A DNA stretch of 42,054 bases from Sporosalibacterium faouarense (lineage in GTDB: Bacteria; Bacillota; Clostridia; Tissierellales; VENL01). Made by a program: the position numbers and the translations under genes. Of this stretch, positions 4,853 to 23,670 are shown piece after piece. The notes below the pieces were generated by a model, which saw nothing but the letters and a program-made list of their open reading frames with translations, searched no databases and was not told the DNA's origin. The stretch's first letter is position 1. The number at the start of each line of letters is the position of its first letter. The stretch spans positions 1-42,054 of the forward strand of contig NZ_JAETGO010000080.1 of the NCBI RefSeq assembly GCF_016765695.1, read 5' to 3'.

Positions 4853-5641
4853 TTACTTTTTTAACAAGAAATATGTTATCTCAACTTCTTCTTTAAAATT
4901 TCCTTTTGGATTTATATCAAGTAAAACTTCCTTTAATTCTCTTTCGAATACATTAATATTATCTCCTAGCAGTCTTTTATTGCAAAATGAAGTAGAATAT
5001 AAATAGCCTATTAGACTTTCCATATTCCATTCATATATAAATTTGAATTTTCCTTTTTGGCTTAGTTTAAATTTACTTTCTTCAAAATAGTCCTCAAATG
5101 ATTTTTGATCAGAAGGAAATTCTCCTTTTCCAGCTTTTCTTTTTTCACCTAACCATTTTTTAATTATTTTTATAGTTTCTTTTTGCCATGTTTTTTTACC
5201 GCTCCAAAAACTAGTACCTGCTAATACAACCATTCCACCAAACTGAGTCAATATATCGTAAGACTTATTTAGAACTACATCTTTATCCATCCAATGAAAT
5301 GCATTACCACATAGTATTAAATCAAACTTTCCTAATTCCTCACCTATTTTTTCTGATTCCATTGTTATAAAGTTAATATTACTAATATTTTTCTCTGAGC
5401 TAACTTTCTTGGCCTCATTTATCATTTCTTGATCAATATCTATTCCAATAACTTCTTTGAAACTTTTATGTAATGGTATTGCCAACTTACCTGTCCCACA
5501 TCCTAAATCTAAGAGTCTACCTTTGCCATCGACTTCATAAAACTTAGTTATAATATCTAATAACTCTTGGGGATATTCTATTCTATATTTGGAATAGTAT
5601 TTAGCTGTACCTACAAACAATTCTTTATTTGAAAAACTCAT
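4853..5641 (-). CDS. Class I SAM-dependent methyltransferase (Methyltransf_11 type)
   Basis: This 262-residue protein carries a canonical class I methyltransferase core. Motif I is LLDLGCGTGKLAIPL (residues ~43-57), the acidic end of strand 2 is GIDIDQEM, motif II is FDLILCGNAFHWMD (NAFHWMD is typical of the UbiE/BioC-like and trans-aconitate-type enzymes), and motif III is GGMVVLAGTSFW. The N-terminal FVGTAKYYSKYRIEYP segment is common to this subfamily, whose substrates are small carboxylates or undefined metabolites. A good RBS (AAAGGAG) precedes the ATG. It is a monocistronic gene with its own terminator. The actual substrate cannot be assigned. Confidence 0.85.
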   Translation of the reverse strand: MSFSNKELFVGTAKYYSKYRIEYPQELLDIITKFYEVDGKGRLLDLGCGTGKLAIPLHKSFKEVIGIDIDQEMINEAKKVSSEKNISNINFITMESEKIGEELGKFDLILCGNAFHWMDKDVVLNKSYDILTQFGGMVVLAGTSFWSGKKTWQKETIKIIKKWLGEKRKAGKGEFPSDQKSFEDYFEESKFKLSQKGKFKFIYEWNMESLIGYLYSTSFCNKRLLGDNINVFERELKEVLLDINPKGNFKEEVEITYFLLKK

Positions 5642-5940
5642 AGTTTCACTCCTTTGAAACCTTTATTTCTATATCATAAAAATAAGTAAACTCTAAATCA
5701 TTAATTAAGTGCTATTTATTATTTACCAAAAACTCCTTGGCCAATATAGAAAAAAAGTATAGTAATTATACATTAACTAAAATTATAACATATTATAGAA
5801 AGCCATTATCTATTAATTTCCAATTATGTTGTTATTCTCATAAACTAAACCTACATTCATAATCTCTTCTAAATTCTTGAAGGATTAGTATAAGCTTATA
5901 TAGAATATAGTAATTTAAATAAATATAAGGAGGTATTGCT

Positions 5941-13442: not shown

Positions 13443-14495
13443 TTATATAGATATCTTATCAAATAAAAAACTACTCTCTAATCTATTTATAATTTTTTCT
13501 TTAATCCCTTCAACCTTATCCATCAGATCCTGATTCTTATCACTATTCATGCACATAATACATAACTTTCTAAGGTGCTGCTTTACATGTTCAATTCTTA
13601 TTCCAATATCTATTTCTTCTATCGACTCATTAGGTTTGTAATATTCAATGAACTTCATCCCAATATATTTATCTTCTATATAATAAGTTGTCCTTGCTAT
13701 TTCATAAACCCACCAATTAGCTCTACATTCATCCCAATCTATTATCCTAGGTTCATCCCCTTCATAAACAATATTTGATGGAAACATATCGCCATATATA
13801 AGAACGCTTTCTTTTGGTCCTTTTATTCCTTTGCATAAATCATTGATTTTATTAGAAACATACTTTAAGAATTCTTCCTCTAAAACCTCATGATTCACTA
13901 ATTCATTGACCTTAACTCCACCATCTTTAACATTCCCAAAAGACCATCTAATAACTTCATCAATATTTTCATAATACTCATGAATACTAGAAAATTTATT
14001 TTGTCCCTTAATATCTCCAAAATAATTAAGCTTTATTGAATGTATTTGTTTTAGTAATAGAGCATAGTCCTTAATCCAACTAATCTCTTCCTTTGGGTCC
14101 ATCTTAAGACTTACTTCTTCATTAAATATTTTCACTTCTCCATCTATCCATTTTTGTATTATAAATCCATAGGGTGCTATTTTATTGCTTTCATCCGAAT
14201 GAATTATTTTATAATAGTTAAAGCCTGCAGAATTGAGAAGTTCATAACATTTATTTAAAGTAACCACATCAGGATACCCACTCTTCAATAATATTTTAAC
14301 TAGGAGTTTAATTTCCTCCTTCTTATTTATCAAGAAGCCTCTCATAAAATAATTTAAATTTTGACCATCTTCAATCTCTTTTACTTCTGTTATTAACATT
14401 TCATACTCATCTATTAAGATATTTTTTATTTCTTCCGTAATTATTTTCTTTTCATCCACAGAAGGATTTATAAATTCTTTTACTTTAAAGATCAT
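13443..14495 (-). CDS. Aminoglycoside-phosphotransferase-like kinase (APH family)
   Basis: About 350 residues. I take the ATG at 14495 because AAGGAG lies 9 nt upstream; the in-frame ATG at 14528 has no RBS and would sit deeper in the GNAT gene. The C-lobe carries the APH/choline-kinase motifs: VLIYGDMFPSNIVYE (catalytic Asp and metal-binding Asn) and RIIDWDE (the Mg-binding 'DxD/DFG' Asp). The Brenner motif's usual His is Tyr (YGD instead of HGD). The N-lobe contains LLVKILLK, a likely ATP lysine. Substrates in this family range from aminoglycosides to choline, homoserine or sugars, so resistance should not be assumed. It overlaps the GNAT gene by 11 bp; the two are translationally coupled. 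Confidence 0.8.
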   Translation of the reverse strand: MIFKVKEFINPSVDEKKIITEEIKNILIDEYEMLITEVKEIEDGQNLNYFMRGFLINKKEEIKLLVKILLKSGYPDVVTLNKCYELLNSAGFNYYKIIHSDESNKIAPYGFIIQKWIDGEVKIFNEEVSLKMDPKEEISWIKDYALLLKQIHSIKLNYFGDIKGQNKFSSIHEYYENIDEVIRWSFGNVKDGGVKVNELVNHEVLEEEFLKYVSNKINDLCKGIKGPKESVLIYGDMFPSNIVYEGDEPRIIDWDECRANWWVYEIARTTYYIEDKYIGMKFIEYYKPNESIEEIDIGIRIEHVKQHLRKLCIMCMNSDKNQDLMDKVEGIKEKIINRLESSFLFDKISI

Positions 14496-14967
14496 TATTA
14501 TATACTCCTTCCATAAAAACCGCTTCACCTATTACCTCTAGACCACATTTCTCATATAATTTTTGTGCAACTGGATTATGTGTATATAATCTTACTGAAA
14601 TTGCATCTGTTTTAGATTGTAATTCAAAGGCTTTTTTCATTAGTTCATAAGCTACTCCCTTACGTCTAAATTCTGGAGCAGTCCATAGTTCATCTATATA
14701 AATCATGCCTTTATGCCATTTCCCTATTTTGGGAATATACATTAAAGAAATCCAAGCAATATATTTATCTTGATACTTAGCTGCATAGACATAAAATCCT
14801 TGATGATCTAATTCCTTATAAACGTCTTCAAAGCACTCATTCTTGCTTGCCCTTTTTTCTTCAGTTGTTCTTTCAACTTCGTTAATTCTCCAATATACCA
14901 TGTCATTAAATTCATGATAATTGTTTTTATTAATTCGTTCTATAGTTATTTTTAACTTTCCACTCAT
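14485..14967 (-). CDS. GNAT family N-acetyltransferase
   Basis: This 160-residue single-domain GNAT has motif A IDELWTAPEFRRKGVAYELMKKAFEL (R-R-x-G-x-A acetyl-CoA pyrophosphate loop, residues ~92-115) and motif B VRLYTHNPVAQKLYEKCGLEVIGE, the usual N-x-x-A-x-x-L-Y-E-K-x-G-F/L end. It likely transfers an acetyl group from acetyl-CoA to an amine on a small molecule or protein. The purine-only RBS GGGGGG lies ~7 nt before the ATG. It is the first gene of a two-gene operon with an APH-like kinase, suggesting that both modify the same compound class, an inference from linkage only. Confidence 0.9.
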   Translation of the reverse strand: MSGKLKITIERINKNNYHEFNDMVYWRINEVERTTEEKRASKNECFEDVYKELDHQGFYVYAAKYQDKYIAWISLMYIPKIGKWHKGMIYIDELWTAPEFRRKGVAYELMKKAFELQSKTDAISVRLYTHNPVAQKLYEKCGLEVIGEAVFMEGVYNNDL

Positions 14968-15060
14968 GCTATTTCCCCCCTGTTTTCACTAGATCTTACC
15001 TTTATATAAATAAATCTAACATAAGAATTTTACAGAAACAACCTTGAACTTTTTTCATAA

Positions 15061-15088
15061 AAGAAAATGAGAAAGGCTCACGCCTTCC
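15061..15088 (-). terminator. Terminator of CD3324-family gene
   Basis: GAAAGGC (15071-15077) pairs with GCCTTCC (15082-15088) around a 4-nt loop. The minus strand continues TCATTTTCTTTT. It lies just past the stop at 15094. Confidence 0.65.
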
Positions 15089-15093
15089 CCATT

Positions 15094-15384
15094 CTATAAC
15101 TTATTATCTTGTAACTTTCTTTTCTGTTGAGTAATAATACGGTAAATACTTTTTTTAGATAAATGATATTCAACTGCAATATATTTAACCTCAACACCTT
15201 TTAAATACTCTTCATATATACTGCTATTTCTTTCCCTGATTTCATTTCTAGTATTAGTACTTTCACCCCATACCTTTCTTTTAGAACTTTTTCTTGGTAT
15301 ATATACATACCTACCATCAACATATTTTTGAATTGATTCTATAATATCTTGAGGTAAGATATCCTCAACATTAACATAGCTCAT
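15094..15384 (-). CDS. CD3324 family DNA-binding protein (Mor-like HTH)
   Basis: A 96-residue basic protein. The N-terminus (SYVNVEDILPQDIIESIQKYVDGRYVYIPRKS) and the C-terminal helix-turn-helix (YLKGVEVKYIAVEYHLSKKSIYRIITQQKR) match the clostridial CD3324 group, relatives of the phage Mu Mor/C activators. It is therefore probably a transcriptional regulator, though targets of the family are, to my knowledge, not established. RBS AGGAGG 6 nt from the ATG. The 5' leader contains an eight-codon ORF with its own RBS and a 12-bp hairpin, which hints at translation-coupled control. Confidence 0.8.
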   Translation of the reverse strand: MSYVNVEDILPQDIIESIQKYVDGRYVYIPRKSSKRKVWGESTNTRNEIRERNSSIYEEYLKGVEVKYIAVEYHLSKKSIYRIITQQKRKLQDNKL

Positions 15385-15420
15385 AATGCTCCTCCTTTTA
15401 TTGAATGTCTAAAGGATTGA

Positions 15421-15464
15421 GCAAAGGCTATTATTTTTTATCTTCACCATGCAATAGCCTTTGC
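15421..15464 (-). repeat. Perfect 12-bp hairpin in leader of CD3324-family gene
   Basis: GCAAAGGCTATT (15421-15432) is exactly complementary to AATAGCCTTTGC (15453-15464), with a 20-nt loop. On the minus strand its first arm begins at the stop codon of the leader ORF. No U-tract follows, so it is not an ordinary terminator; a translating ribosome at the leader stop would cover the first arm. Confidence 0.6.
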
Positions 15465-15490
15465 TATGCATTAATAATATATTTTCTCAT
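15464..15490 (-). CDS. Putative 8-aa leader peptide MRKYIINA
   Basis: On the minus strand ATG AGA AAA TAT ATT ATT AAT GCA TAG follows AGGAGG by ~10 nt. It is too short for routine gene calling. It ends at the base of a 12-bp hairpin and precedes the CD3324-family gene by 79 bp. The strong RBS and the position against the hairpin are what make it credible as a regulatory upstream ORF; there is no codon bias for one amino acid beyond two Ile codons. Chance occurrence remains possible. Confidence 0.4.
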   Translation of the reverse strand: MRKYIINA

Positions 15491-15630
15491 ACTACTCTTA
15501 CCTCCTACTATCTAATTTTATGAATAATAAGAACATCAAATCTTTACTATATTTTGTAATATTTATAGATGTTCCTATTATATAAATTTCTAGATTAAGT
15601 GATAAAGTCCTTTATAATTAGGTTAATTTA

Positions 15631-17912: not shown

Positions 17913-18210
17913 CAATAAAAAAACTCGTCCTCTAGCTAAGCTAGAGGACGAGAGTTTTACTCACGTGGTCCCACCTCATTTTATTAATACCTCACGGAAT
18001 TAACCTTTTCGAGTACGGCAAAGTTTGCTTATACTCTAGCACTGTAACGGGTGCGGTACCGAGGACAGTCTACACCCTTAACTAAGGGTTCGGTGCCTGA
18101 CTCTGAGATGTGTTCAAAATAATTTTCTATGCCCCTCTCACCAAACGGGAACTCTCTGTTCAAAAAATTTATTCCTACTATTTCTCATCATAGTCTTTTC
18201 TTCATTTAAT
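17913..18210 (-). ncRNA. T-box leader specific for tRNA-His
   Basis: On the minus strand, Stem I includes the GGTGAGAG element, the specifier loop GAA-CAC-A (CAC at 18110-18112, a His codon followed by a purine), the T-box motif AGGTGGGACCACG (17964-17976) and a terminator: CTCGTCCTCTAGC (17924-17936) pairing with 17940-17952, then a T-run. In the T-box bulge TGGN, N is G, which pairs with a C discriminator base, the unusual C73 of bacterial tRNA-His. Uncharged tRNA-His should stabilise the antiterminator and switch the importer genes on. Exact 5' limit is approximate. Confidence 0.9.
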
Positions 18211-23429: not shown

Positions 23430-23670
23430 TTAAATAAATTTATGGAAATTCATTGAAGAGAAAAGTATCCATTTATATTTTCTTATAGCGAGTAGAAGTC
23501 CGGTGGAAGTTCTACAGAAAATAAAGTGGTGAAGAGGGCCTCTGAGAAGCTACCTGAGCACTTGCAAGGGTTAGACGTTGACTGCGTTAAAGTTTTAAGT
23601 GGACTATTTTAGTCAATTTGAGTGGTACCGCGGATTAATACCCGTCTCTATTTTTAGAGACGGTTTTTTT
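23430..23670 (+). ncRNA. T-box leader of argS
   Basis: The T-box motif AGTGGTACCGCGG (23621-23633) is nearly canonical; its N is T, pairing with an A discriminator. Stem I includes GTCCGGTGGAAG. The terminator CCGTCTCTA-TTTT-TAGAGACGG (23642-23663) is followed by seven T. The specifier is probably AGA (23533-23535, Arg) in GTGA-AGA-G, although GAG one base later cannot be excluded by eye. Uncharged tRNA-Arg would induce argS. Confidence 0.88.

Follow-up and report, generated by a model that had tools for sequence, protein, structure and literature searches.

A conserved short-ORF leader with three competing helices upstream of CD3324-family, Mor-like regulator genes suggests ribosome-sensing translational attenuation

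Attenuators of the erm type are built from four RNA arms in which the pairings A:B and C:D alternate with the pairing B:C, and the Shine-Dalgarno (SD) sequence of the controlled gene lies in arm D. The leader of Bacillus subtilis vmlR, as described in the relevant sections of PMC9226507, has a short upstream ORF (uORF) with an antibiotic-induced stall, competing helices, and a hairpin that sequesters the SD; beside the erm- and cat-type translational attenuators we also cite msrD (PMC10314930). For FusB of plasmid pUB101, the part of PMC12493156 that deals with its control describes translational attenuation by ribosomes stalled with fusidic acid, and in that part the review calls the regulation of FusB homologues unknown. 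In Actinobacteria, according to the passages of PMC7157823 on induction, regulon and binding, the activator WhiB7/WblC is induced by translation-targeting antibiotics through uORF-mediated attenuation, has a regulon table that contains 16 GNATs, 7 methyltransferases, ABC proteins and tetM, and binds just upstream of the -35 element.

The locus compared here with these systems lies on the minus strand of a 42,054-nt stretch of Sporosalibacterium faouarense DNA (the window). A leader ORF encoding MRKYIINA and ending in TAG (15490-15464, with its ATG at 15490) is preceded by an SD, AGGAGG, at 15506-15501, with a spacing of 10 nt between SD and ATG, and the position of this ORF is kept in our alignment of related leaders (A1). 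The preliminary description had reported this 8-codon ORF with a good ribosome binding site, a perfect 12-bp hairpin at its end, and a spacing of 79 to a gene for a Mor-like regulator. Both the ORF with its binding site and the spacing are borne out, the latter as the 79 nt from the leader stop codon to the CD3324 start at 15384. The hairpin is indeed perfect but measures 13 bp rather than 12 (inverted repeat 15465-15453/15432-15420, 100% complementary, loop of 20 nt), and its 5' arm opens with the last two bases of the leader stop codon. The features had been placed correctly, although the strand had gone unstated and a second hairpin, in which 15416-15411 pairs with 15398-15393 and masks the regulator's SD, had been omitted. 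Folding of 15520-15370 gave a z score of -3.14, and 2 of 200 shuffled sequences were equally stable. A predicted sigma-70-like promoter (TTATCA-17-TATAAT, 15577-15605), identified by consensus match in a region where 11 promoter-like matches were found and 9.0 were expected, would place the transcription start upstream of the leader ORF. Its predicted -10 element is overlapped by a 14-bp inverted repeat (93%; 15524-15581, minus strand), which could serve as an operator or form a stem at the 5' end.

The regulator gene (15094-15384) encodes a protein of 96 aa that is matched over cut-off by both the CD3324-family profile NF040785 (109.1 bits, cut-off 65) and the Mor profile PF08765 (37.9 bits, cut-off 24.9). 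When its AlphaFold model (pLDDT 87, pTM 0.56) was searched with Foldseek, the C protein of phage Mu was the best match (E 0.096) and Mor the sixth (E 0.53), with none at E 0.001, and in a profile search against PDB sequences Mor ranked third (E 0.08), behind a CAP-repeat chain (E 1.2e-6, no stretch of which passes alone) and GerE. A phage origin of CD3324 was rejected, since 50,697 phage records contained no match.

Three helices that are incompatible with one another were found in alignment A1. Helix A:B joins the last two leader codons and the stop codon (arm A, AATGCATAG, 15464-15472 in the window) to the segment after the stop codon; B:C is the reported hairpin; and C:D joins the 3' arm of that hairpin, with the bases behind it, to the SD region of the regulator. 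Arm B (15448-15465) serves two partners, pairing with C through AGCAAAGGCTATT (15465-15453) and with A through CTATTGCATG (15457-15448). Arm C, the 3' arm of the hairpin, is AATAGCCTTTGCT (15420-15432), and the stretch that pairs with the SD region (15411-15423) consists of TGCTC at 15423-15419 and TCCTTT at 15416-15411. Arm D (15387-15398) comprises AAAGGA at 15398-15393 and GAGCA at 15391-15387, and contains the regulator's SD, AGGAGG, at 15396-15391. Over 23 leaders, 89.9% of cells are paired in A:B, with 5 of 9 pairs changed on both sides, and 93.0% in B:C, with 5 of 13 pairs changed on both sides; the covariation score was matched by none of 500 shuffles for either helix. In a swap test, native arms were compared with arms exchanged between leaders, and native pairing was the more stable for A:B (-7.3 against -5.0 kcal/mol, 0 of 20000 permutations), for B:C (-17.7 against -15.6 kcal/mol, 0 of 20000) and for C:D (-12.3 against -10.6 kcal/mol, 1 of 20000). 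The mean cost of opening the SD region is 4.8 kcal/mol with B:C formed and 9.3 kcal/mol with C free; it is higher by more than 0.5 kcal/mol with C free in 21 of the 23 leaders, and in the window it is 4.4 with B:C formed against 11.3 with C free. A geometry of the erm or cat type had been proposed for this leader, and the proposal gains support because the reported hairpin, which by itself misses the ribosome binding site, competes with two other conserved helices.

Conservation of the ORF and hairpin had been named beforehand as the point on which this proposal could fail, and both proved to be conserved. The DNA of 15507-15370 is 86% identical in one other genome (G026), where it also stands before a CD3324 gene, and parts of it are 72-83% identical in six further genomes belonging to other families of the order. 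CD3324 loci were gathered from the order, where 31 of 249 genomes scored over cut-off and one of 61 genes was dropped for having no start by our start rule, and from the phylum, where 41 of 398 genomes scored over cut-off, the loci were drawn from 30 of a larger number of CD3324 matches, and 8 of the 29 fetched were dropped by the same rule. The window type of leader (class A) is represented by 23 sequences from nine families of the order, in which the position of the ORF and the three helices are kept; 18 of them, including that of the window, precede a CD3324 gene, and five precede the gene that follows CD3324. A model built from these 23 leaders (R1) gave 25 matches at E<=1e-5 in 17 of the 249 order genomes, 23 of them being the sequences from which it was built. 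The two beyond the training set are a degenerate copy in G057, which raises the number of families with matches from nine to ten if it is counted, and a leader in G031 before a lone DUF1062 gene, whose A:B arms are again able to pair, with different letters. At E<=0.01 there were 31 matches, six of them between 0.0016 and 0.008, and one of these six, in G118, was rejected on inspection, there being no such leader at that site.

A broader count took in every class of leader. An SD-led ORF of 5-45 codons was present in the 210 nt preceding 54 of 81 CD3324 genes, compared to 23 of 173 other genes with intergenic upstream regions (Fisher p 2e-17, a value that is optimistic because the loci are related). 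Among the 27 of 81 CD3324 upstream regions that failed this count are the degenerate leader of L104, a class (D) in which the uORF overlaps the gene start, and three genes that lie no more than 9 nt behind another gene (L082_3, L105_5 and L125_3), where a short ORF should indeed be absent if such leaders are a feature of free-standing regulators. One of the proteins encoded upstream of these three carries nucleotidyltransferase domains (KNTase_C at 24.8 bits, slightly under cut-off), and a domain search with the other two returned no match. That the hairpin is a passive repeat or acts only on RNA stability, with ORF and hairpin together by chance or shared descent, would be in keeping with the AT-rich intergenic DNA and the near-chance level of promoter-like matches; we give this idea very little credence, since three incompatible helices covary and recur in nine families, and a second class of leader has similar logic.

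In our preferred reading, to which we assign a probability of roughly 70%, the leader is a ribosome-sensing translational attenuator, and the gene under it encodes a WhiB7-like regulator that acts locally on translation-stress genes; stalling, the sequence of OFF and ON states, the inducer and target activation are inferred. No U-tract follows the leader helices, so control by the leader is probably translational. During free translation of the leader, ribosomes would arrive at the stop codon and B would be hidden by the ribosome or paired with A. Given a ribosome footprint that reaches some 15 nt beyond the P site, a ribosome at the stop codon would cover A and much of B, leaving C to D. With B unavailable, C would pair with the regulator's ribosome binding site in D, and the regulator would be off. 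A stall in the first leader codons, whether caused by a drug or by other translation stress, would instead cover A and expose B, allowing B:C to form; D would be weakened and the Mor-like regulator made. The regulator may then activate a promoter just past its own terminator, which in the window stands before the GNAT and APH-like genes. The piecewise opening costs given above favour such a shift. In equilibrium folding with the ribosome masked, however, SD accessibility did not clearly increase in most leaders; a marked rise was seen only in L083b, and in the window the value was 0.22-0.23 throughout. The short anti-SD hairpin accounts for this result, since it is kept in both states. The lowest-energy fold of the window leader without a ribosome includes B:C, suggesting that a leader free of ribosomes could be in the ON and not the OFF state; being OFF would then depend either on the earlier formation of A:B or on the arrival of ribosomes at the stop codon.

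The leader peptide is exactly 8 sense codons long in 18 of the 23 class-A leaders, and its sequence varies (MRKYIINA, MGTPFYFA, MKLEVVFA, MMKLIINT, VLIKVQYA, MREYTNA), with no common codon run. Codon-level selection was not found among the 23 leaders, where third positions are least diverse and single differences in leader codons are 25 synonymous and 123 nonsynonymous; therefore, we claim no conserved stalling peptide. A variable peptide of kept length favours a stall that depends on position and not on a specific peptide. Any early stall would suit this geometry, including one caused by a lack of charged tRNA or by some other general slowdown in translation, in which case the leader would be an amino-acid or starvation attenuator and not a drug sensor. 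The neighbourhood lends this some colour: at gathering threshold, the only Rfam matches in the window are two T-box leaders, at 17941-18200 (minus strand) and 23444-23652 (plus strand), and the first of these is upstream of a set of genes for amino-acid ABC transport that stops a little short of the leader. The leader peptides have no common codon run, however, and the genes downstream are frequently resistance-like, and we find a starvation signal unlikely.

In the rest of the order and in the phylum, CD3324 genes are preceded by other leaders of similar logic. In class B, aligned as 14 leaders (A5; 7 of 22 candidates were lost to a trimming rule, and the near-duplicate L102 was left out), an arm CUCCAUGCAAAGUC pairs either with a proximal segment, UUUGCAUGGAG, or with a distal one, GACUUUGC. 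The proximal pairing is 96.4% paired, with 7 of 10 pairs changed on both sides, and the distal pairing 99.1%, with 3 of 8 pairs changed on both sides; they share columns and are thus mutually exclusive. The anti-SD helix of this class is weaker (79.2% paired, and a slide of one column does equally well). Swap tests over 19 leaders gave 0 of 20000 for all three pairings, in a set that contains one mis-trimmed leader (L107) and two that pair poorly with the distal segment under the cut used (L154 and L163).

Searching the phylum with a class-B model (R2) gave 17 matches at E<=1e-3 in 13 of 398 genomes, four of the 17 having helped to build the model. Eleven were at CD3324 genes, one of which (in G560) is split into two frame pieces, one was before an apparent CD3324 remnant (L211), and four were directly before FusB-type genes (L217, L219, L221 and L222; PF07299, PF16571); the context of the remaining match, in G331, falls outside this tally. 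The FusB-type gene of Paenibacillus cellulosilyticus also has a class-B leader (E 8.5e-9), giving a fifth FusB-type case, with L224 among the five loci. Class-B leaders are also present in named plasmids of Paenibacillus and Pseudalkalibacillus. The leaders of pUB101 fusB and of a Priestia FusB gene were rejected as members of the class, neither having an R2 match to E 1. The strongest clue to the signal is that a leader known from regulators here stands before FusB-type genes as well.

Other arrangements were also observed. A third kind of leader, with arms like GATCTACCCAC/GTGGGTAGATC, lies upstream of CD3324 in L156, L158 and L165. In 8 loci (L064, L067, L066, L065, L023, L069, L025 and L024), a distinct CD3324 paralogue (mostly with a TTG start, LSYKKG/LSYKNA) has an SD-led uORF that runs across the gene start in another frame and stops 68 nt into the gene, and a small ORF like KIEVLLA follows the paralogue gene in several loci.

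Strong conservation of the RNA beside a variable peptide, and the class-B core that is well conserved across the phylum, could also be accounted for by an RNA that binds a ligand or protein, either as a riboswitch or through autoregulation by the CD3324 protein at its own leader, with an incidental ORF. Such a role would leave unexplained why arm A includes the stop codon in leaders of the window type, why the ORF keeps its position and, in 18 of 23 leaders, its length, and why SD-led short ORFs are strongly enriched; leaders stand before FusB-type and DUF1062 genes as well, and Rfam has no match at the leader at gathering threshold, a search of ten loci to E 0.5 returning nothing except three sub-threshold microRNA matches. 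We judge a binding RNA to be unlikely.

In the window, an intrinsic-terminator-like hairpin is predicted directly after the regulator gene (15064-15095), and is followed by a candidate target promoter block, AAGGTTG-19-TTAGAT (15014-15045), which may hold the activator site. The presumed targets are a GNAT acetyltransferase gene (14485-14967; PF00583, 56.3 bits) and a gene for an APH-like phosphotransferase, or kinase (13443-14528; PF01636, 39.4 bits), the start of which is uncertain, its longest ORF overlapping the GNAT gene. We surveyed the 56 same-strand genes next after 61 CD3324 ORFs (37 clusters; best 25 of 59 families). Among the families listed were GNAT PF00583 (16 genes), DUF1062 (5), the metallo-beta-lactamase superfamily (3), FusB-type EF-G-binding proteins (2) and serine beta-lactamase-like proteins (2), and there was at least one SpoU rRNA methylase and at least one ABC-F protein (413.1 bits, cut-off 380). 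FusB-type proteins, both those after CD3324 and those behind class-B leaders, score under the cut-offs that define the named resistance families, indicating that these proteins are relatives. Among 58 control genes, located three or four places upstream, no GNAT appeared in the families matched twice or more, and the GNAT excess after CD3324 gives a Fisher p of 4e-5 even if one control GNAT is assumed. In a Pseudalkalibacillus plasmid, a gene annotated as FusB/FusC lies 134 nt after CD3324.

A terminator-like hairpin follows 37 of the 56 CD3324 genes, compared to a mean of 8.9 in 10 shuffles. The block [AG]AGGT[TA]-N18-22-TANNN[TA] precedes the next gene in 12 of 17 class-A loci and in 4 of 39 loci of other classes, a count made on the same sequences from which the pattern was derived, and one of the 12 matches (L118_13) sits on the terminator and not on the block. 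When the genome of the window was searched for a regulon by a crude scan for the block, there were 3 matches and 3 in the control, with no excess, and one of the two matches other than that in the window falls inside a gene.

DUF1062 genes occur in several of these settings. A class-A leader stands directly before five of them downstream of CD3324, and the lone DUF1062 gene, which brings the number with a direct leader to six, lies directly behind a class-A attenuator in L199 (1821-2534, minus strand), where the 4-kb stretch contains no CD3324 gene. The lone protein scores 139 bits with DUF1062 and just over cut-off with an S4 RNA-binding domain (23.6 against 22.8 bits), and a CD3324-linked relative has weak matches to zinc-ribbon chains. 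In L104, the decayed remains of a second attenuator and its DUF1062-like gene (5254-5660, plus strand) lie between CD3324 and a GNAT gene, and the regulator's own leader there is also degenerate.

These observations can be extended to a reading of the whole family, for which we see the chances as evenly balanced: across Bacillota, CD3324/Mor-like proteins may be activators induced by drugs or translation stress, a functional counterpart of WhiB7 made from small local modules, with leaders also placed on protective genes, among them those for FusB-type EF-G-binding proteins. Each module would comprise a ribosome-sensing leader of one of several classes, a regulator, a terminator and one adjacent protective gene, and DUF1062, with an S4-type RNA-binding domain in one copy, would be a new candidate for a translation-protection factor. 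The leader analysis provides a so far uncharacterised family of Bacillota regulators with a testable input, ribosome stalling, and a testable output, the adjacent gene. WhiB7-like logic is suggested in another phylum, a possible route of regulation is proposed for some FusB homologues, and the covariance models point to unrecognised protective genes such as DUF1062.

The preliminary description had considered control of this kind to be undescribed for the CD3324 family, which is consistent with the open-access literature searched, where we found no description of such a leader for the family; a term search of the ncRNA-discovery paper PMC8632094 found no CD3324, YraL or Mor. The attenuator is a device of known kind, and its combination with a CD3324 regulator is new. 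Like the erm- and cat-type attenuators, the window leader has the four-arm order, A:B and C:D against B:C, with the SD in D; unlike them, it controls a Mor-like regulator (or, in related loci, DUF1062 or FusB-type genes), and the sequence of its leader peptide is unconserved. It shares with the vmlR leader, as far as the cited description goes, a short uORF, competing helices and an SD-masking hairpin, and an antibiotic stall would be a further likeness; vmlR has an intrinsic terminator within its leader, whereas here a terminator-like site is found only after the regulator gene. With pUB101 FusB, in the part of the review cited, it has in common a leader sequence, alternative RNA folds and control at the level of translation. 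FusB-type genes are found here both as neighbours of CD3324 and directly behind a class-B leader, but the lack of an R2 match to E 1 indicates that the pUB101 leader is a different RNA from class B, and most of the genes controlled here are regulators. The Mor and C proteins of phage Mu (PDB 1rr7, 9l0x) are related to the CD3324 regulator through the Mor Pfam family, but CD3324 genes are chromosomal or plasmid-borne, with leader RNAs and resistance-like neighbours. The closest system in function is, in our comparison, WhiB7/WblC, and the resemblance to CD3324 is of function only, the regulator being Mor-like, not a WhiB-family protein, and the two proteins unrelated. In the cited account, WhiB7/WblC is controlled by transcription attenuation and has a large regulon, whereas control here is probably translational, and the adjacent gene alone is indicated as the target.
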